Virus record (IMG/VR): IMGVR_UViG_3300032092_000106
Span: 1-37,418 of that record
DNA: 37,418 nt
DNA from: a virus
Reading direction: 5' to 3' (one strand)
Shown here: piece after piece, positions 3,384 to 29,897 of the stretch
How positions within the stretch are numbered: the first letter of the stretch is position 1
Layout of the letters: every line of letters begins with the position of its first letter
Program-made: the position numbers and the translations under genes
Notes under the pieces: model-generated
Told to the model about the DNA's origin: nothing
The model's database searches: none
What the model saw: only the letters and a program-made list of their open reading frames with translations

Positions 3384-6122
3384 ATGGCATTTAGAATCAA
3401 TCAATCTCCCGCAGTCACTATCCTTGAACGCGATTTGTCTTTAATCGCACCAAATAACGCTGGAACCAATGTTTTTATCGCTGGATTCACCCCCCAAGGT
3501 CCCACAGATGAAGTTTTAAAAATTACTACTAGAGATGAACTAGAAGCAATTTATGGTGTCCCAACAAATAGTGCAGAAAGATATTTTTATTACTCAGTAA
3601 GAGAATTGTTAAATTCTCCTGCAAGTATCTATACTTTCCGTCTCCCATACGGAACTGGATCTGGAGATGGTTTCGGTTCGGAACATTCAGCATTGGTATA
3701 TCCAGTTAAATCTTATACACAAGGTAATAGCTATGATAGCGTGAGTTCATTCACTTTAAACATGGTTTATGATCAGAATTTAGCTGGGACTCCTTTATCT
3801 GGTGCTGCATTCAAAATCCAAGATTCCACTGGTGCGCCAAAAACTGTAGTATTTTCTATCAATGGTCAAACACCTGCTAGAAGTGGTAACATCACAGTTC
3901 CAGTCCTTTCGACCTCTACATTTGCACAAATCTTAACTGCAATTTCGAACACGATTCCTTTATCTGCACCAAGTGTTACTGTTGCAACAACAGCACCAAA
4001 CACTTTCACAATCAGATTGAGTGGGTATGTTCCATTGGTAGAAACTCCTTCTTTGAGTTCTTCGGTTCTTGCAGGTCTAGATGATTCTGGAGATATTTTC
4101 ACTATTTCTTCTGCTCTTTCAACTGCTTATTCTACGACACCTGTTTTGGGTGATAATCTTGATATTGAAAATGGTGTTTACTTCCTTGGAGAACCAGTTC
4201 AAGTTAAATTGAGTGAAACACAATATCAACAAGCACTGGAAGGAACTCTTTTCGATTGGTCTTCTACTGCTTCTGCTAGAACTTCTCTATCGAATCTTTC
4301 GGCAATCGGTGGTGCTGGTGTTGTCGTTCTTGATAAAGCTCAAACTACTATCAATAGCCAATTCGAAGGTTACTATGTCGGTCTGACTGATAACGTTAAT
4401 TTGGATGTTGCAACCGATTTCAAAAATATCACTGGAATTAAGAGCACTTCTCTTACTGCAAATGCAGTTGGTCTTGGAACTAATACTTATACAAACATTC
4501 CAAGTGGAACTCTACAATTCAACTTGTCTTCCAGTTCTGCGGTTTCCAATAACAGTATCTCTCGTGTAATGGCTAATCTCACTGACTATGACATCGCAGG
4601 TCGTGAAGATGATGATTTGCTTGGTCTGGGAGTGTTCAAACTTCGTAAGAGTGTTTATGCCACAGAATCCTTCAAATTGGATTATGTGGTTGATGATGCG
4701 ATTGTTGGATCTATCGATAGCTTCAGAACTCAACTCAATCCTACTGGTGGTTCTGCAATTCCATTCTTCTTAGAGTCACAAGACACCAATTCTAGAAACG
4801 TCGAAATTTTGGTAAACCCATATCTTTCAAACAAATACTCCGATACTGCAATCGGTAATGATGGTCTTCCCAAGAAGAAAATCAGAGTGCTTACTCAAGC
4901 TACTGTTACGAACTATAATTCAGTTTCTGCTGCTGTTGGTGCTCCTCTGAATATTGTTAATTCTGCGATTGCTTCAATCAATACAGCAGATTCATTGTAT
5001 CCTCTGGGTGTTTATAATCCAGTTAAAATTACCCAAAAAACTATTGGCAATGTTCCAACCAAAATCAATCGTGCATTAGAATCTGTCCTCAACGATGAAA
5101 TCTATGACATTGATGTGGTTGTCGAAGCTGGTCTGGGAACTATCTTCACAATGGCTTCTGCTGCTGGAACAACATATTATGATGATACTCTCTACAATAA
5201 CACAATCAAGACTAAGTTAGATACTTTGAGAACATCTAATGACATTTTCAACGATGTTGTAGCAACAGATATTCGTGGTAGCTACAGTGCCGTGTTCAAT
5301 CAATTTGAAAACTTCTGTAACTTGCCTGTGAACACTGGTGGTCGTGGTGACTGTATCTTTATCGCTGACCCAATTCGTCACATTCTCGTGACTGGTAGAA
5401 ATACCAAAGTGTTGGCAGATAGAAACAACAATTTCCAACAACATGTGTATTGGGCAATGCGTCACCAATTCGAATTGGAAAACACTTCCTATGCTGCTGC
5501 ATATGCGAACTGGGTTCAAGTGTTTGAAGAATTTAATGGTGATAAAGTATGGATTCCATTCTCAGCATTCCAAGGTGCTATCATAGCAAGAAGTTCTGCA
5601 AACAATTATCCATGGTCTGCTCCTGCTGGATTTAACCGTGGTCTATTGACATCCTCTGCACTCGATCTGGCAATCAATCCTAATCAGAAACAACGTGATG
5701 AGCTTTACAAGATCAACTTGAATCCTGTGATGTTCTCTGCATCGCAAGGTATGGTAGTGTTCGGTCAAAAGACCATGCAGCGCAAACCTAGTGCCTTCGA
5801 CCGCATCAACGTTCGCAGATTGTTCCAAGCACTGGAAAGACCTACCAAAAAGGCTTCTCAATTCTTCATCTTTGAACCGAATACCGAATTCACTAGAAAT
5901 CGTTTGGTCATCGCTATCGATCCAATCTTCCAATTCGCGAAGCAAAATGATGGATTGTATGATTATCTGATCATCTGCGATGAAAGAAACAACACTCCAC
6001 AAGTTATTGACAACAATGAGTTGAAAGTGGACATCTTGATCAAACCTGTCAGAACTGCTGAATATATAACAGTCACATTCACTGCTACAAGAACTGATGC
6101 GGTGTTTGATGAATTGATCTAA
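3384..6122 (+). CDS. Contractile tail sheath protein (T4 gp18-like)
   Basis: A 912-residue protein, longer than T4 gp18 (659 residues) but with the family's ends. The N terminus (FRINQSPAVTILERDLS) and the region just after it (FIAGFTPQGPTDEVLKI) are typical of sheath subunits. The conserved C-terminal domain contains WIPFSAFQGAI, PWSAPAGFNRG, FDRINVRRLFQALER and FIFEPNTEFTRNRL, followed by a DILIKPVRTAEYITVTF strand. The extra length lies in the variable middle (about residues 100-450), where surface domains are inserted in this family. It polymerises around the tail tube and contracts to drive the tube through the cell envelope. It is followed by a strong terminator and then, after two inserted genes, by the tail tube gene, as 18-19 order predicts. 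Confidence 0.95.
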   Translation: MAFRINQSPAVTILERDLSLIAPNNAGTNVFIAGFTPQGPTDEVLKITTRDELEAIYGVPTNSAERYFYYSVRELLNSPASIYTFRLPYGTGSGDGFGSEHSALVYPVKSYTQGNSYDSVSSFTLNMVYDQNLAGTPLSGAAFKIQDSTGAPKTVVFSINGQTPARSGNITVPVLSTSTFAQILTAISNTIPLSAPSVTVATTAPNTFTIRLSGYVPLVETPSLSSSVLAGLDDSGDIFTISSALSTAYSTTPVLGDNLDIENGVYFLGEPVQVKLSETQYQQALEGTLFDWSSTASARTSLSNLSAIGGAGVVVLDKAQTTINSQFEGYYVGLTDNVNLDVATDFKNITGIKSTSLTANAVGLGTNTYTNIPSGTLQFNLSSSSAVSNNSISRVMANLTDYDIAGREDDDLLGLGVFKLRKSVYATESFKLDYVVDDAIVGSIDSFRTQLNPTGGSAIPFFLESQDTNSRNVEILVNPYLSNKYSDTAIGNDGLPKKKIRVLTQATVTNYNSVSAAVGAPLNIVNSAIASINTADSLYPLGVYNPVKITQKTIGNVPTKINRALESVLNDEIYDIDVVVEAGLGTIFTMASAAGTTYYDDTLYNNTIKTKLDTLRTSNDIFNDVVATDIRGSYSAVFNQFENFCNLPVNTGGRGDCIFIADPIRHILVTGRNTKVLADRNNNFQQHVYWAMRHQFELENTSYAAAYANWVQVFEEFNGDKVWIPFSAFQGAIIARSSANNYPWSAPAGFNRGLLTSSALDLAINPNQKQRDELYKINLNPVMFSASQGMVVFGQKTMQRKPSAFDRINVRRLFQALERPTKKASQFFIFEPNTEFTRNRLVIAIDPIFQFAKQNDGLYDYLIICDERNNTPQVIDNNELKVDILIKPVRTAEYITVTFTATRTDAVFDELI

Positions 6123-6135
6123 AATAATATAATAT

Positions 6136-6172
6136 AACCCTTCCATTCGTTAAGGATGGAAGGGTTTTTTTT
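6136..6172 (+). terminator. Rho-independent terminator after tail sheath
   Basis: An 11-bp perfect stem, AACCCTTCCAT (6136-6146) with ATGGAAGGGTT (6156-6166), and a 9-base loop, run into eight T residues (6165-6172). The next gene's ATG is the very next base, 6173. Confidence 0.9.
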
Positions 6173-6901
6173 ATGATTGAAAAACCAAAAATTCATGTAT
6201 TTACTATATGTTATAATGAAGAAAAAATAATTCCATTTTTTCTTGATCATTATAAATATGCAGACAAAATTACTGTTTATGATAATGAATCGACAGATAG
6301 TTCCAGAGATCTTTTGCTGAAAGATCCAAGAGTTGAATTGATCACTTATCAAACTGATAACAAATTACATGATGGTGAATATGTTAGAATAAAAGAATCT
6401 TGTTGGAAAAATACTGATTGTGAATATGCAATTATTGTTGATATGGACGAATTTGTATATCATCCAAATATAAAAGATTTTCTCATGGAAGATAACCATG
6501 CAGCATATAAACCAAAAGGATACAATATGATCAGTGAAGTATTTCCAGAAAATGGAACTTTAACTGAAAAGGTGAATATGGGCGTTAAAGATTCTAAGTA
6601 TTCTAAACTATGTATATTAAACACTAAAAAAGTTGAATCTATCAAATATAAATTGGGTTGTCATGAATCGAGTATTATTATGAATAACCCAGAAGATAAA
6701 GTTATTCATACAAACAATTTAAAATTATTACATTATAAAAATTTATCTTTTGATTATAGATTCAAAAAACACGAAGAATATAGAAAAAGAAGAAGTGAAT
6801 TTAATAATAGAGAGGGTGCAGGTACACATTATTTACATAATGAAGAAAAACAACGAAAAGAATTTGAAAAAATTCTTCTTAATATGAAAAAAGTGATATG
6901 A
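6173..6901 (+). CDS. Glycosyltransferase (GT-A, GT2-like)
   Basis: A 242-residue protein. FTICYNEEKIIPFFLDHY (residues 9-26) is the nucleotide-sugar binding start of the Glyco_tranf_2_4 group, and VYDNESTDSS follows. VDMDEF near residue 88 is the metal-binding DxD. It transfers a sugar from a nucleotide donor, either to a phage structural protein, to DNA or to a host surface polymer; which cannot be told here. The start is fixed by the terminator: ATG is immediately after its T tract, with no room for a ribosome binding site. The gene sits between sheath and tube genes, which are usually adjacent, so it looks like an insertion. Its base composition is clearly more AT-rich than the sheath gene. 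Confidence 0.8.
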   Translation: MIEKPKIHVFTICYNEEKIIPFFLDHYKYADKITVYDNESTDSSRDLLLKDPRVELITYQTDNKLHDGEYVRIKESCWKNTDCEYAIIVDMDEFVYHPNIKDFLMEDNHAAYKPKGYNMISEVFPENGTLTEKVNMGVKDSKYSKLCILNTKKVESIKYKLGCHESSIIMNNPEDKVIHTNNLKLLHYKNLSFDYRFKKHEEYRKRRSEFNNREGAGTHYLHNEEKQRKEFEKILLNMKKVI

Positions 6902-6939: not shown

Positions 6940-6946
6940 CTAAATA
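6940..6946 (+). promoter_or_regulatory. Late promoter of homing endonuclease (CTAAATA)
   Basis: CTAAATA, GTAAC, ATG: spacing 5. It is part of a segment that matches the tail tube gene's 5' region (see repeat 6940-6974). Confidence 0.7.
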
Positions 6947-6974
6947 GTAACATGGCAACGAATATCGAAACTTT
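6940..6974 (+). repeat. Copy 1 of duplicated late promoter plus first codons
   Basis: The promoter, ATGGCA, and ACGAATATCGAAACTTT here match 7712-7749, with one 3-base gap and one mismatch in the coding part. The first codons read MATNIET here and MAGTNIET in the tail tube gene. Confidence 0.85.
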
Positions 6975-7719
6975 AGGTGAGGCTATTGAATATAAACAAT
7001 GCCCCGCTATTTATATTTTAAAAAATAATATCAATGGTAAGGTTTATGTTGGAGAGACCATGAATTTAAGGCAGCGAGTGTATTCTTATCATAAGTCGAA
7101 TATGGATACGCTTAGACCAATATTGAGAGCTATAAACAAACACGGATTGGAAAATTTTTCATTTGAATATCAATATCATCCAAATTTTTCTAAAGATGAA
7201 TTGTTGGATTTAGAAGAAAAATTGATAAAGGAACATAATAGTTTGATGAGTGGAAATGGTTATAATGTTTGTTCCAGAGGTCAAAATAGATATTCTGCCA
7301 CCCAATCATTGGAAGCTAGAAAAAAAAGAAAAGAAATATTCAAAGGACGTATTCTTAATGAAGAATGGAGACGAAATATGTCAAAATCAAAAACAGGTAA
7401 AAATCACCCAATGTATGGTAAAAAATTATCTGAAGAAACTAGGAAAAAAATGGGAGACTCTCGTAGAGGGGAAAAAAATTATAAATTTGGCAAAGAAACC
7501 GATGAAAAAATTAAATATAAATTAATGATGAATAGAAAGGATCGTATAGAGGTTGCCCAATATACAAAATCTGGTGAATTTGTTGCTAAATATCCATCAA
7601 TTAGAGAGGCTGCAAGACAAACTGGTATAGATAGTAGATATATTAATCCGGTTTGTGATAAAATAGGTAGGAGTGCTAAGGGATTTATATGGAAAAAAGT
7701 TATCATAGAGACTAAATAA
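6952..7719 (+). CDS. Free-standing GIY-YIG homing endonuclease
   Basis: A 255-residue protein. The GIY-YIG core opens at residues 20-34 (IYILKNNINGKVYVG), with Arg40 following and the acidic LEEKLIKEHNS helix near residue 87, where the catalytic Glu is expected. The middle carries NUMOD3-type DNA-binding motifs (NHPMYGKKLSEETRKKMG, then GEKNYKFG). The C terminus has a NUMOD1/IENR1-like helix-turn-helix (AKYPSIREAARQTGIDSRYI) ending in KGFIWKK. It resembles Seg-type mobile endonucleases of T4-like phages, which cut related genomes and spread by repair. The first seven residues look borrowed from the tail tube protein. The final codons (ACT AAA TAA) form the late promoter of the tail tube gene. 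Confidence 0.9.
   Translation: MATNIETLGEAIEYKQCPAIYILKNNINGKVYVGETMNLRQRVYSYHKSNMDTLRPILRAINKHGLENFSFEYQYHPNFSKDELLDLEEKLIKEHNSLMSGNGYNVCSRGQNRYSATQSLEARKKRKEIFKGRILNEEWRRNMSKSKTGKNHPMYGKKLSEETRKKMGDSRRGEKNYKFGKETDEKIKYKLMMNRKDRIEVAQYTKSGEFVAKYPSIREAARQTGIDSRYINPVCDKIGRSAKGFIWKKVIIETK
7712..7718 (+). promoter_or_regulatory. Late promoter of tail tube (CTAAATA)
   Basis: CTAAATA, ATACT, ATG: spacing 5. The box overlaps the stop codon of the endonuclease gene. Confidence 0.75.
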
Positions 7720-7749
7720 TACTATGGCAGGAACTAATATCGAAACTTT
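7712..7749 (+). repeat. Copy 2 of duplicated late promoter plus first codons
   Basis: The native partner of 6940-6974 at the start of the tail tube gene. The shared ATCGAAACTTT ends at 7749; weak similarity may continue a little further. Confidence 0.85.
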
Positions 7750-8296
7750 CATGAATCAAGCGATGCAAAAACAATTTGCACGAGATTTCCTTTTTAGAAT
7801 AAGACAAATTGATGTTACTGGTTTATCTCTTGATGGAGAAACTGACTTGGTTTATGCAAGAACTGCAACATTTCCCGGCAGAAACATTCAAAACAAACAA
7901 GTAAATTATAGTGGTCAAACTTTCAACCTTCCCGGTAAATCGGAATATCCCGGTTCTGAAGGATGGTCTATCGAATTTTTCGTAGATCAAAACTTAGATA
8001 TTCGTAATAAGTTGGAACGCGCATCGAGAGTTCTTTTTGATAACGAAAATACCACAGGTAATATTTGTATGCCGGGTTATGAATCCATAATCACTTTGGA
8101 CGTTTTACAAATTCCTTGTTCTCGTGGTGCTAACGCAACTGGTAATGCTCTCCAAATCGGTCAAACGATTCAATTGGTGGGTGCATCTTTGAGAGATATT
8201 GGGCAAATCGATTATCAGATTGCTGATGGTAGTGGCGAAATTTTGAATTTTACTGCAACATTTGCATACCACTTCTACAAAGATTTTACGAAATAA
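7724..8296 (+). CDS. Tail tube protein (T4 gp19-like)
   Basis: A 190-residue protein, near the 163 of T4 gp19. Characteristic features are an N-terminal amphipathic stretch, FLFRIRQIDV, the TATFPGRNIQNKQVNYSGQTF block (residues about 47-67), GWSIEFFVDQNLDIRN with its conserved acidic strand, and a C-terminal IDYQIADGSGEILNFTATFAY hairpin. It stacks as hexameric rings to make the inner tube through which DNA passes. Downstream of the sheath gene it gives the expected order, interrupted by the glycosyltransferase and homing endonuclease. A terminator follows at 8352-8382. Confidence 0.9.
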   Translation: MAGTNIETFMNQAMQKQFARDFLFRIRQIDVTGLSLDGETDLVYARTATFPGRNIQNKQVNYSGQTFNLPGKSEYPGSEGWSIEFFVDQNLDIRNKLERASRVLFDNENTTGNICMPGYESIITLDVLQIPCSRGANATGNALQIGQTIQLVGASLRDIGQIDYQIADGSGEILNFTATFAYHFYKDFTK

Positions 8297-8413: not shown

Positions 8414-9013
8414 ATGCGTCCACAAATTAACGATTTCTTACAAGCATTTTCAGGAGATGCTAAGTTTTGTCTCTCGATTCCTGTATTATGGACAGTATCT
8501 ATTGATGGTGTTTCCGAAGGTGCTATTAACAGCGTATTGAGTAATGCTGGTCAATATTGGTCAGCAAAATTGACACCTAATCAGATGTCTAGAAATGGTA
8601 ATATACTACCAGCACAACAGGTAGTTATACCAAATGAAAGTGCGAGCTTTGTTGCTATGGCAGAAGGTTCTGGATTGGGAGGATTTCTTCCGGGGTATGC
8701 TATGGATTCTAGATCAGATTTCTTATCTCGATCATTTTCTATCAATTTTTTGGAAACTCGTAGAGACTTGGAGCATGAATTCTTTCGACCATGGTCTATC
8801 GCATTGGGTATTAAAGGTTTGATTGAACAAGGTGTTAATTTAAAGGCAACGATTACTGTGAAACAATATAATAACGCTGGTCAATTCCGAAAAGGTTTTC
8901 AATTTTACAAAGCATTTCCGACAAATGTTGAAGGTTTCAATCTCGATTATAACAACACTGATTATCCTATTAAATCAGTGACCTTTGCATGTGAGAATTA
9001 TAAGCAATTATGA
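8414..9013 (+). CDS. Second tail-tube-like virion protein
   Basis: A 199-residue protein just downstream of the tail tube gene, with its own late promoter. It has the size and beta-rich character of tube-fold proteins. The segment SFSINFLETRRDLEHEFFRPWSI (about residues 110-132) parallels the SIEFFVDQNLDIRN region of the tube protein, and the end (YPIKSVTFACENY) is a strand like the tube's last hairpin. It could be a tube initiator or baseplate tube protein (T4 gp48/gp54 role) or a tail terminator; I cannot decide. Its last bases overlap the next gene by ATGA. Confidence 0.65.
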   Translation: MRPQINDFLQAFSGDAKFCLSIPVLWTVSIDGVSEGAINSVLSNAGQYWSAKLTPNQMSRNGNILPAQQVVIPNESASFVAMAEGSGLGGFLPGYAMDSRSDFLSRSFSINFLETRRDLEHEFFRPWSIALGIKGLIEQGVNLKATITVKQYNNAGQFRKGFQFYKAFPTNVEGFNLDYNNTDYPIKSVTFACENYKQL

Positions 9014-15133: not shown

Positions 15134-15151
15134 TTAAAACTAGAATATACT
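15134..15151 (+). promoter_or_regulatory. Leaderless-type promoter 2
   Basis: TTAAAACTAGAATATACT, TAAAAC, ATG 15158. It starts 2 bases after the upstream stop codon. Confidence 0.8.
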
Positions 15152-16993: not shown

Positions 16994-17536
16994 ATGTATA
17001 TAACACTCATTAGACATGCTCAGTCATTGGGGAATGCTGATCACACCATTTACCATAAAATGATGGATCATGAAATACCTTTGACTGAAAAGGGAGTAAA
17101 GGATGCAGAAAAAAAATATTCATCCGAAAAACTATATAATCAAATTTATTATTCACCATATACTAGATGTGTTCATACCAAAAATTTATTGTTTGGAGAT
17201 AGTAAAGGAATTGAAAATCCATTATTGATCGAGAGACAATGGGGTCAATTACGAAATCTTGTCGGCACTAAAAATTTTGATAAAAAAGTTCATTTCAACT
17301 TCTTTTATCGACCACAAAATGGAGAATCTTTTTTTGATGTCTACCAAAGAGTTGCTTTATTTTTTGAGTTTATTAAAAGTCGTCATTCAACTCTTCACAA
17401 TATATGCATAGTTTCACATGGTGAGTGGATAAAAGTGGCTTGTATGTATCTGGAAGGAAATACCGTTGAGGATTTTCATAATGATCGATCAAGAATTACA
17501 AATTTAAGTGAGAGAATAAAATATTTTGAATTTTAA
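16994..17536 (+). CDS. Histidine phosphatase (phosphoglycerate mutase fold)
   Basis: A 180-residue protein. LIRHAQSLGNA (residues 4-14) is the RHG-type phosphohistidine motif, YSPYTRCVHT supplies the second catalytic Arg, and IVSHGEWIKV near residue 141 the second His. It should dephosphorylate a small metabolite, nucleotide or protein. The 32 bases upstream contain a TATAAT (about 16973) but not the conserved promoter. Its stop shares bases with the ATG of the repeat protein gene that follows (TAATG). Confidence 0.8.
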   Translation: MYITLIRHAQSLGNADHTIYHKMMDHEIPLTEKGVKDAEKKYSSEKLYNQIYYSPYTRCVHTKNLLFGDSKGIENPLLIERQWGQLRNLVGTKNFDKKVHFNFFYRPQNGESFFDVYQRVALFFEFIKSRHSTLHNICIVSHGEWIKVACMYLEGNTVEDFHNDRSRITNLSERIKYFEF

Positions 17537-17766
17537 TGGATATTGATAATAAAACGTTCTTTTCTGTTCGGAATTCTGTTTGGAATTCTGTTTGGGGTTC
17601 TCTTCATCATTCTGTTTGGGATTCTGTTGGGGATTCTGTTGGGGGTTTTGTTGGGGGTTTTGTTAGGGATTCTGTTGGGGGTTTTGTTGGGGATTCTGTT
17701 GAGGGTTCTGTTGGGGGTTCTGTTCATCATTTTGTTGGGAACAAATTGAAAAGATATAAATTTTAA
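17536..17766 (+). CDS. Tetrapeptide-repeat small protein (SVxx family, copy A)
   Basis: A 76-residue protein. After MDIDNK the sequence is about 15 tandem tetrapeptides of the form [S/F]Vxx (SVWD SVGD SVGG FVGG FVRD ...), then the C-terminal NKLKRYKF. The DNA is a 12-bp repeat (GTTGGGGATTCT-like), so all forward frames and one reverse frame stay open; the chosen frame is supported by the shared start and end in the other copies. No known domain matches; pentapeptide repeats have a different period. A beta-helix or amphipathic surface is possible. The stop TAA is the first TAA of promoter 4. Confidence 0.7.
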   Translation: MDIDNKTFFSVRNSVWNSVWGSLHHSVWDSVGDSVGGFVGGFVRDSVGGFVGDSVEGSVGGSVHHFVGNKLKRYKF

Positions 17767-22512: not shown

Positions 22513-23158
22513 AAAACACCGAAAGGATTATAATAATATATATTTTATGTCCGATAGTCACTATGGACATAATAGAGATTTTTTATATAATCCAAGAGGA
22601 TTCAATAGTGCCGAAGAACATAATCAATGGATGGATGAACAGATATCCAATCTTCATCCAAAAGACCTATTGATTCATGCTGGTGACGTAGGATTGTCTA
22701 TTGGCTTTAGAGGAGTCCAAGAGTTTATGAACAGATTTCCATGCGAGACATTGATGGTATGGGGTAATCATAATTCTGGTGTGGTGCAAGCATATAAACA
22801 AGCATTGCCAAGAGGTTTTGACAATTTTGAAGTATATCCATTAACCATCGTTAAAAATATTCAAATGATGGGCAGCGATTTTCTGTTAGATATTGACCAG
22901 AATTTCTTTTATATTAAACATATGGCTCCATTGATCTGGGATGATATGAATAAAGGAGAAGCATCAAGATTTTGCGTGTGTGGACATTCTCATGGAAACT
23001 TGAAGGGTGCTAATCCAAATGATCATGGACTCGGTAAAATTTTGGATGCTGGTGTAGAAAATTCCATCAAATACAATGGAACAGCATTCTTCTCATTGGA
23101 TGATGTGATAAACATTATGAAAAACAAAGAAGTTTCAGTGGTGGATCATCATGAGTAA
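22499..23158 (+). CDS. Calcineurin-like metallophosphoesterase
   Basis: A 219-residue protein with all metal motifs in order: YFMSDSHYGH (DxH), LIHAGDVG (GD), MVWGNHNSG (GNH), IKHMAPL, and VCGHSHG (GHxH). It belongs to the short phage/bacterial phosphoesterase group. The substrate is unknown; 2',3'-cyclic phosphates or other nucleotides are plausible. Together with the RNA ligase and the 2H phosphoesterase it may take part in RNA end repair (inference). The last codons overlap the following repeat gene. Confidence 0.85.
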   Translation: MLKIKKHRKDYNNIYFMSDSHYGHNRDFLYNPRGFNSAEEHNQWMDEQISNLHPKDLLIHAGDVGLSIGFRGVQEFMNRFPCETLMVWGNHNSGVVQAYKQALPRGFDNFEVYPLTIVKNIQMMGSDFLLDIDQNFFYIKHMAPLIWDDMNKGEASRFCVCGHSHGNLKGANPNDHGLGKILDAGVENSIKYNGTAFFSLDDVINIMKNKEVSVVDHHE

Positions 23159-23381
23159 AGATATTGATACAATATTGGATCATAATAACAATATGATGAT
23201 CTATATTCGGGATTCTGTTGGGAATTCTGTTGGGGGTTCTGTTCGAGATTCTGTATGGTTTTCTGTTCGGGATTCTGTTAAGGATTCTGTTGAGGATTCT
23301 GTATGGTATTCTGTTCGGGATTCTGTATGGGATTCTGTTCGGAATCCTGTTAGGAATAAATTGGATAGTTATAAATTTTAA
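23151..23381 (+). CDS. Tetrapeptide-repeat small protein (SVxx family, copy B)
   Basis: A 76-residue protein. A 23-residue N-terminal part that differs from copy A (MSKDIDTILDHNNN...) is followed by 12 tetrapeptides (SVGN SVGG SVRD SVWF SVRD SVKD SVED ...) and the C-terminal NKLDSYKF. The repeat positions carry more charged residues than copy A. It begins inside the last codons of the phosphoesterase gene. Function unknown. Confidence 0.7.
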   Translation: MSKDIDTILDHNNNMMIYIRDSVGNSVGGSVRDSVWFSVRDSVKDSVEDSVWYSVRDSVWDSVRNPVRNKLDSYKF

Positions 23382-26285: not shown

Positions 26286-26323
26286 GGGTGGGTGTATAAA
26301 ATCGCCCAACCTATATAATTTTT
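26286..26323 (+). terminator. Possible terminator
   Basis: GGGTGGGTG (26286-26294) can pair with CGCCCAACC (26303-26311), with one mismatch and one G-U pair over an 8-base loop. A short T run follows only after seven bases. Weak, but placed between two transcription units. Confidence 0.35.
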
Positions 26324-26327
26324 AATT

Positions 26328-26498
26328 ATGGATATTAATAATGAAGTATTGAGTTCTTTTCGGTTTAGTATTGCGGGATCTTTTGTAAATTTTGTTTCTA
26401 ATTCTGCTTCTAATTCTGTCTGGTTTTCTGTAAGGAAGTCTGTTCACAATTCTGTTTGCATGTCTGTTGGACATAAATTGTATAGTTATGAATTTTAA
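26328..26498 (+). CDS. Tetrapeptide-repeat small protein (SVxx family, copy C)
   Basis: A 56-residue protein, MDINNE..., with degenerate tetrapeptides (FRFS, FVNF, SASN SVWF SVRK SVHN SVCM) and the end SVGHKLYSYEF. Start (MDI.N), repeat register and C terminus match copies A, E and F, so it is a diverged member. It starts just after the possible terminator and ends where the late promoter of 26512 begins. Confidence 0.65.
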   Translation: MDINNEVLSSFRFSIAGSFVNFVSNSASNSVWFSVRKSVHNSVCMSVGHKLYSYEF

Positions 26499-26505
26499 TT
26501 AAATA
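26499..26505 (+). promoter_or_regulatory. Late-type promoter in the accessory region (TTAAATA)
   Basis: TTAAATA, then 6 bases (TAGAAA), then ATG 26512. The box matches that of 8402-8408 but the spacing is one base longer. Confidence 0.5.
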
Positions 26506-29308: not shown

Positions 29309-29527
29309 ATGACAAAAGATAATATCAAATTATATCTTCATATAAAAATTAGAAATTTTGCACATGAGGATACATTCGTTGGTCAACAAGTAAATGATCG
29401 TGTCCACTTTCCCCATGAAACATTTCAGGAATGCTTATTAAATGATGACGAAGATATTTTTTTATTGGACAATTTCGATAGAATTGTTGGATCAATCTTT
29501 AATAAAGTAATAAAATATGAATTTTAA
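29309..29527 (+). CDS. Small hypothetical acidic protein
   Basis: A 72-residue protein starting right after a terminator's T tract. It is acidic in the centre (ECLLNDDEDIFLLDNFDR). The C terminus FNKVIKYEF, in DNA TATGAATTTTAA, resembles the ends of the tetrapeptide-repeat genes, two of which follow at once. It may be a relative that lost the repeats, or may share only a recombination boundary. Confidence 0.55.
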   Translation: MTKDNIKLYLHIKIRNFAHEDTFVGQQVNDRVHFPHETFQECLLNDDEDIFLLDNFDRIVGSIFNKVIKYEF

Positions 29528-29529
29528 TT

Positions 29530-29700
29530 ATGGATATTGGTAATAAAGTATGGGAATCTGTTCGGGATTCTGTTTGGGATTCTGTTGAGGATTCTGTTGA
29601 GAATTATATTTTTTATTTTGTTTGTGATTCTATTTGTTATTATGTTGGGAATTCTGTTCAGGGTTCTGTTGGAAATAAATTGAGTAGTTATGAATTTTAA
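29530..29700 (+). CDS. Tetrapeptide-repeat small protein (SVxx family, copy E)
   Basis: A 56-residue protein: MDIGNKVWE, then SVRD SVWD SVED SVEN, a diverged aromatic middle (YIFYFVCDSICYYVGN), SVQG SV, and the end GNKLSSYEF. Its first bases and last bases are nearly identical to those of copy F, which follows after two bases, so E and F are a tandem duplication with different internal wear. Confidence 0.7.
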   Translation: MDIGNKVWESVRDSVWDSVEDSVENYIFYFVCDSICYYVGNSVQGSVGNKLSSYEF

Positions 29701-29702
29701 TT

Positions 29703-29897
29703 ATGGATATTGATAATAAAGTATGGGAATCTGTATGGTTTTCTGTTGGGAATTCTGTTGGGGATTCTGTTCGAGATTCTGTATGGTTTTCTGTTCGGGA
29801 TTCTGTTTGGAAAACTGTTGGGGATTATGTTCGGGGTTCTGTATGGTTTTCTGTTCAGGGTTCTGTTGAGAGTAAATTGGATAGTTATGAATTTTAA
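29703..29897 (+). CDS. Tetrapeptide-repeat small protein (SVxx family, copy F)
   Basis: A 64-residue protein: MDIDNKVWE, 12 tetrapeptides (SVWF SVGN SVGD SVRD SVWF SVRD SVWK TVGD YVRG SVWF SVQG SVES), then KLDSYEF. It is the most regular copy after A and B. Its stop TAA opens promoter 11 of the ATPase gene. Other frames stay open because the DNA repeats every 12 bases; the start and end shared with A and E support this frame. Confidence 0.7.
   Translation: MDIDNKVWESVWFSVGNSVGDSVRDSVWFSVRDSVWKTVGDYVRGSVWFSVQGSVESKLDSYEF

Follow-up and report, generated by a model that had tools for sequence, protein, structure and literature searches.

A homing endonuclease gene of T4-like phages that probably starts from the captured promoter and first codons of the tail tube gene

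In an uncultured family of T4-like phages, a GIY-YIG homing endonuclease gene most likely lies behind the original late promoter of the tail tube gene, and the tube gene now appears to run from a promoter and first codons brought by the mobile element itself. We put the probability of this history, in which the endonuclease captured the promoter and start of its target and the tube gene continued on an element-borne replacement, at roughly 0.8. The analysis centers on one T4-like myovirus, IMG/VR virus record IMGVR_UViG_3300032092_000106 (positions 1–37,418); the window is this whole stretch of 37,418 bases, which is listed as L089 among the loci compared.

Results

Gene neighborhood and sampled relatives

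The relatives of the window are 37 loci found in a search with the tube gene, together with further loci from profile searches. The genome contigs searched for relatives of the window yielded none, and annotated phage records gave distant tube matches only (26%) and, among those listed, endonuclease matches of about 33% or less. The genes that frame the endonuclease in the window are as follows.

3384–6122, + strand: tail sheath gene (PF17482, 5.4e-13; phrog_23, 1.9e-59), the upstream neighbor in relatives
6136–6172, + strand: terminator-like hairpin and T-run 3′ of the sheath gene, from the sequence
6173–6901: family 2 glycosyltransferase gene, between the sheath terminator and the endonuclease
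7724–8296, + strand: tail tube gene (gp19-like), the target gene (phrog_45 tail tube, 3.3e-14; 37 relatives at 49–82% identity)
8414–9013: second tube-family gene, 3′ of the tube gene (PF06841, E 1.8e-5, below the gathering score)

The glycosyltransferase gene occupies the interval between sheath and endonuclease in the window only, with no match among the 37 tube relatives, and is possibly cargo that arrived together with the element. The second tube-family gene likewise has TAAATA 5 nt 5′ of its ATG. The sheath–tube junction is a hotspot in relatives, where phrog_3339 homing endonucleases and reverse-strand HNH or endonuclease VII-like genes are found (L009, L020, L187, L205, L231, L237, L028 and L219), stacked in L187 and L237.

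Elsewhere in the window, nineteen early-type promoter-like motifs (TAAAACTAGAATATAAT) lie on the + strand between 13770 and 36640, for example at 15137, 17766, 19869, 25136, 33052, 34228 and 36612. The −10-like end of the motif is exactly 6 nt 5′ of an ATG at 14 of these sites, a spacing from which early genes may be leaderless too. Degenerate 12-nt repeats make up open reading frames or stretches (protein ..DSVWDSVGGSV..) at 17536–17766, 23151–23381, 26313–26501, 29515–29703 and 29703–29897; these are dispersed paralogues, about 3–6 kb apart.

No separate start codon precedes the catalytic motif of the endonuclease

The endonuclease gene and its domains, all on the + strand, are these.

6952–7719, + strand: GIY-YIG endonuclease open reading frame, 255 aa (Pfam GIY-YIG PF01541, 4.9e-10; NUMOD3, 1.1e-19; NUMOD1, 7.3e-7; phrog_314 homing endonuclease, 4e-34)
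7003–7266, + strand: GIY-YIG catalytic domain, residues 18–105 (Pfam)
7345–7452, + strand: NUMOD3 DNA-binding motif, residues 132–167 (Pfam)
7549–7647, + strand: NUMOD1 domain, residues 200–232 (Pfam)

The protein resembles the I-TevI domain 1ln0 (E 2.7e-5). I-TevI is encoded by an intron and is not known to be fused to codons of its target. Homologues of the window endonuclease, at 67–81% identity, sit at the same place in twelve contigs and together with the window give six distinct alleles, a sample behind which only a few recombination events may stand. In all six, the GIY-YIG residues Y21, Y32, G34, R42, E88 and N105 are unchanged. A dN/dS of 0.08–0.29 places the protein under purifying selection. 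No ATG, GTG or TTG occurs between the leader and the PAIY catalytic motif in any of these alleles, and the next in-frame start falls at codon 37 at the earliest; the enzyme thus relies on the tube-like start codon described below. Residues ~183–255, the C-terminal part that contains NUMOD1, come in two distinct types, one in L008 and L012 and the other in L001, L005 and the window, joined to an N-terminal part that is nearly the same, which suggests that the DNA-binding part has been swapped among alleles.

The start of the endonuclease gene repeats the start of the tube gene

Four short features define the repeat.

6940–6946, + strand: CTAAATA, core of the late promoter 5′ of the endonuclease and, from its position, the putative ancestral tube promoter (sequence, ATG spacing, same core at other late-type starts)
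6952–6974, + strand: putative captured tube leader, start codon and first 7.7 codons (ATGGCAACGAATATCGAAACTTT), forming the endonuclease N-terminus (17/18 repeat, alignment and shuffles, comparison with other late starts)
7712–7718, + strand: late-promoter core CTAAATA of the tube gene, overlapping the last codons and stop of the endonuclease (sequence; retained in scars of endonuclease-less relatives)
7724–7749, + strand: putative element-borne tube start, the second leader copy (repeat, alignment; hypervariable in the endonuclease/scar clade)

An earlier note, made from the window alone, had described the endonuclease start as nearly identical to the tube 5′ end, and the comparison bears this out: each CTAAATA stands exactly 5 nt 5′ of its ATG (6952 and 7724), and AACGAATATCGAAACTTT (6957–6974) and AACTAATATCGAAACTTT (7732–7749) agree at 17 of 18 bases. 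What the two starts share is confined to the 7-nt promoter core, ATGGC and this 18-nt block; the promoter surroundings differ (CTAAATAGTAAC versus CTAAATAATACT), and the tube copy of the leader has one additional codon, GGA. The same note placed the tube promoter in the last codons of the endonuclease, as is the case, since the reading frame ends ..GAG ACT AAA TAA and CTAAATA thus lies within its final codons and the stop. In 20,000 shuffles of the window tube start, the observed leader–tube alignment score was never attained, and no other of the 163 late-type starts in the data set attains it.

The likeness extends to the homologues. The endonuclease leader is tube-like in six of six alleles, with best tube scores of 14–20, whereas the top scores among 119 other late-type starts are 8.5–12.5, and neither an unrelated 5′ end nor a loss of the similarity, either of which the note had taken to speak against its reading, was found among them. 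Within single loci, the agreement between leader and tube start varies: the window has a very strong match, L001, L008 and L012 each have a clear one, L005 has a weak one (shuffle p 0.018), and L017 has none (p 0.14). Differences between the leaders of donor and recipient, or later drift, would produce weak or absent matches of this kind, though they are not proof of it. In L008, the tube start reads MPTSIENF and the leader of its endonuclease MAGTTIENL.

It is highly improbable that the two starts are alike without copying, as a consequence of a leaderless start signal (CTAAATA-N5-ATGGCAAC...) common to late genes. CTAAATA-N5-ATG is indeed frequent among late-type starts, and ATGGCAACT also occurs in some unrelated ones, with scores up to 12.5. 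However, other late starts reach median scores of 3.5–5 against the endonuclease leaders and none equals the best tube scores; the 13-mer ATATCGAAACTTT occurs twice in the window genome and in none of the other loci compared; other endonucleases at the same junction, the phrog_3339-type genes that serve as controls, have no tube-like leader; and a physical exchange of leaders is seen between L008 and L012 (below). Convergence is thus already disfavored.

A copied start could also have been a general trait of endonucleases, and 63 other endonuclease leaders were searched for copies of neighbor-gene starts. The top three hits pair endonuclease-like proteins with one another and the lower scores are chance-like, so the trait is not general. 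A related GIY-YIG/NUMOD1 endonuclease at L191:4606–5499 lies directly 3′ of the tube gene, with a late-type promoter of its own and no copied start.

Across tube and endonuclease starts, TAAATA-N5-ATG spacing is kept at 86 of 95 (redundant contigs counted), and this fixed distance between promoter and ATG is consistent with leaderless translation. Late promoters of cyanophages are given as NATAAATA (PMC2984593).

Removal of the insert, exchange of leaders and scars

The putative mobile unit that follows from the removal result and the L008/L012 breakpoint is the following.

6975–7749, + strand: inferred mobile unit, 775 bp, comprising the endonuclease body, the embedded tube promoter and the replacement tube start

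Deleting everything between the leader end and the corresponding base of the tube restores an in-frame tube open reading frame in six of six alleles, with MATNIETFMNQAMQKQF as the product in the window. Both leader copies of the window share derived bases (NIET versus TIEN in relatives), and this agreement in bases absent elsewhere points to duplication in place or to later gene conversion. A simple insertion of the endonuclease between sheath and tube, followed by gene conversion that homogenized two fortuitously alike leaders, would give shared derived bases of just this kind. We nevertheless hold it improbable, as it requires an initial similarity and leaves unexplained both the missing start of the endonuclease and the tube frame that is restored in every allele.

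The comparison of L008 with L012 shows a change of leader at close range. The two loci are ~100% identical over roughly 700 bp upstream and over ~2.8 kb past the tube start, with endonuclease bodies 99.9% and tube genes 99% identical, and their local difference is a single upstream/promoter/leader block. It spans from the terminator T-run through the leader, and the two sequences rejoin at its end, at AATTT|AGG. In L008 this block consists of a remnant of an endonuclease 3′ end, a promoter of the tube type and the leader ATGGCTGGAACTACCATTGAAAATTT; the endonuclease-less L003 has a tube start that departs from this leader at two positions. A tube-type start has therefore been turned into an endonuclease start. 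The event in L008 could be ordinary recombination of an endonuclease-bearing allele with a scar allele instead of homing.

Alleles with and without the endonuclease exist at one insertion site. Comparison of the endonuclease-less relatives, as the earlier note had proposed, finds either a bare sheath–tube junction or a scar of the endonuclease 3′ end. In L003, L013 and L014 the last 47 nt 5′ of the tube ATG match the end of the L001 endonuclease at 96–98% (E 1e-18 to 1e-21) and encode KGFVWRKI..ND followed by a stop; L002, L004, L007, L010 and L011 retain similar but more diverged endonuclease ends. The retained piece includes the tube promoter, as expected if loss of this promoter is not tolerated. 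In more distant relatives the junction is bare, with about 16–31 bp between sheath and tube.

These results sustain the proposal that the endonuclease was inserted within the first codons of a tube gene that stayed intact, for which the restored frame, the scars and the L008/L012 exchange all speak. Fusion of the endonuclease to a ready-made promoter stands as well, with one revision: the note took this promoter to be a copy, and it is better read as the captured original, the tube gene being the one on an element-borne copy. The captured arrangement is directly visible in L008; in the window we infer it from the position of the promoter and from its type, CTAAATAGTA, which is that found 5′ of the endonucleases of L001, L005 and L012.

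The endonuclease and its flanks have separate histories. Endonuclease bodies of L001 and L008 are 81% identical versus 97.5% for their tube bodies, and between the window and L017, which belong to distant clades, endonuclease dS is 0.88 and tube dS is saturated. The sequences thus indicate that the endonuclease has spread horizontally, independently of its flanks. In the endonuclease/scar clade, diversity is 0.245 at tube codons 2–9 and 0.10 in the tube body; the corresponding values in a sister clade are 0.129 and 0.25.

Discussion

Proposed history of the element

According to the history we favor, a GIY-YIG homing endonuclease gene would have inserted about 23 nt (codon 8) into the tube gene, keeping the reading frame. 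The late promoter and start codon that originally served the tube gene, both upstream of the insertion point, would now drive the endonuclease, which lacks a separate start codon and is joined at its N-terminus to the first tube codons. At its 3′ end, the unit would encode a second late promoter within the last codons and stop of the endonuclease, followed by replacement first codons that continue in frame into the tube body. During homing, the enzyme would cut an uninterrupted tube gene near codons 8–9, and repair would then insert a copy of the unit. The right homology arm would be the tube body, and the left arm would be either the leader itself or the sheath side. The promoter and leader of the recipient would then start the endonuclease, and the tube gene would receive the promoter and leader of the donor; with the tube gene on element-borne codons, homing would swap its 5′ end. 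A later deletion could drop the endonuclease but would have to keep its last ~50 nt, because those nucleotides are the tube promoter.

Alternatively, the tube-like sequence may be kept as a copy of the homing site that the enzyme binds to repress its own late promoter, by analogy with I-TevI. In the account of T4 endonucleases in PMC2988022, I-TevI has a homing-site-like operator at a late promoter, and such operators over late or middle promoters are put forward for I-TevII and I-TevIII as well; in the window, a target-like copy does lie directly at a late promoter. We regard an operator as unlikely to be the explanation, because taken alone it does not account for the in-frame continuity of tube and endonuclease, the restored tube upon removal, the missing start or the scars, although it is compatible with the promoter-capture history as an added function.

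A further idea, to which we give somewhat less than even odds, is that the element works as a start-codon trap with a built-in rescue. It would be expressed only via the captured promoter and start of its target, and the target would be re-supplied with a start and have its 5′ end rewritten at each homing; the carried start may be recoded against recutting, which would amount to a natural cleave-and-rescue design. The locus illustrates how the coding start of an essential gene can admit a selfish gene and come to no harm, and why the newcomer is then hard to lose. It also illustrates the modular capture of a promoter and start codon joined in one unit, and alleles from before, during and after the insertion occur naturally in one contig set.

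Comparison with known systems

Two elements of this arrangement are already known, namely fragments of host genes on homing elements in fungal mitochondria and promoters embedded in endonuclease genes in T4; our search of the open-access literature found no phage endonuclease that starts from the captured start codon of its target gene. The free-standing GIY-YIG endonucleases SegA–G of T4, and especially segG beside gene 32, are likewise nucleases next to an essential gene with downstream promoters inside the open reading frame, and as PMC2988022 describes them, seg genes can contain the promoters of the next essential gene, which favors their retention. This trait appears to be present here: the endonuclease reading frame contains the putative promoter of the essential gene that follows it, and the scars keep that promoter. 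In the same description, however, seg cassettes are promoter-less and join upstream transcripts or have promoters in non-coding DNA, and, unlike the window element, the seg genes as presented there neither begin with the opening codons of their target nor bring along a replacement start for it (PMC2988022). Aeh1 mobE, T4 mobA and phage 25 seg43 also lie inside essential phage genes but, in the account of PMC2988022, leave the host gene in pieces, whereas the target gene in the window is whole.

Another analogy is with mobile open reading frames and introns of fungal mitochondria, whose elements carry a foreign copy of a target-gene segment, which takes the place of the resident segment in frame; examples are Allomyces atp6, Glomus atp6, atp9, cox2 and nad3, and Tremella cox1 and nad genes, and gain and loss of such elements swaps gene fragments (PMC3630166; PMC7315562). 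The window element similarly seems to carry an in-frame copy of part of its target gene. In the mitochondrial cases compared, the carried fragment restores the downstream part of the host reading frame, and the native piece persists as a remnant; the element in the window differs in that it would carry a promoter and start codons, in that the displaced native piece has become the start of the endonuclease, and in that its host is a phage and not an organelle. By this analogy, the element may represent a phage counterpart of the host-gene-carrying homing elements of fungal mitochondria.
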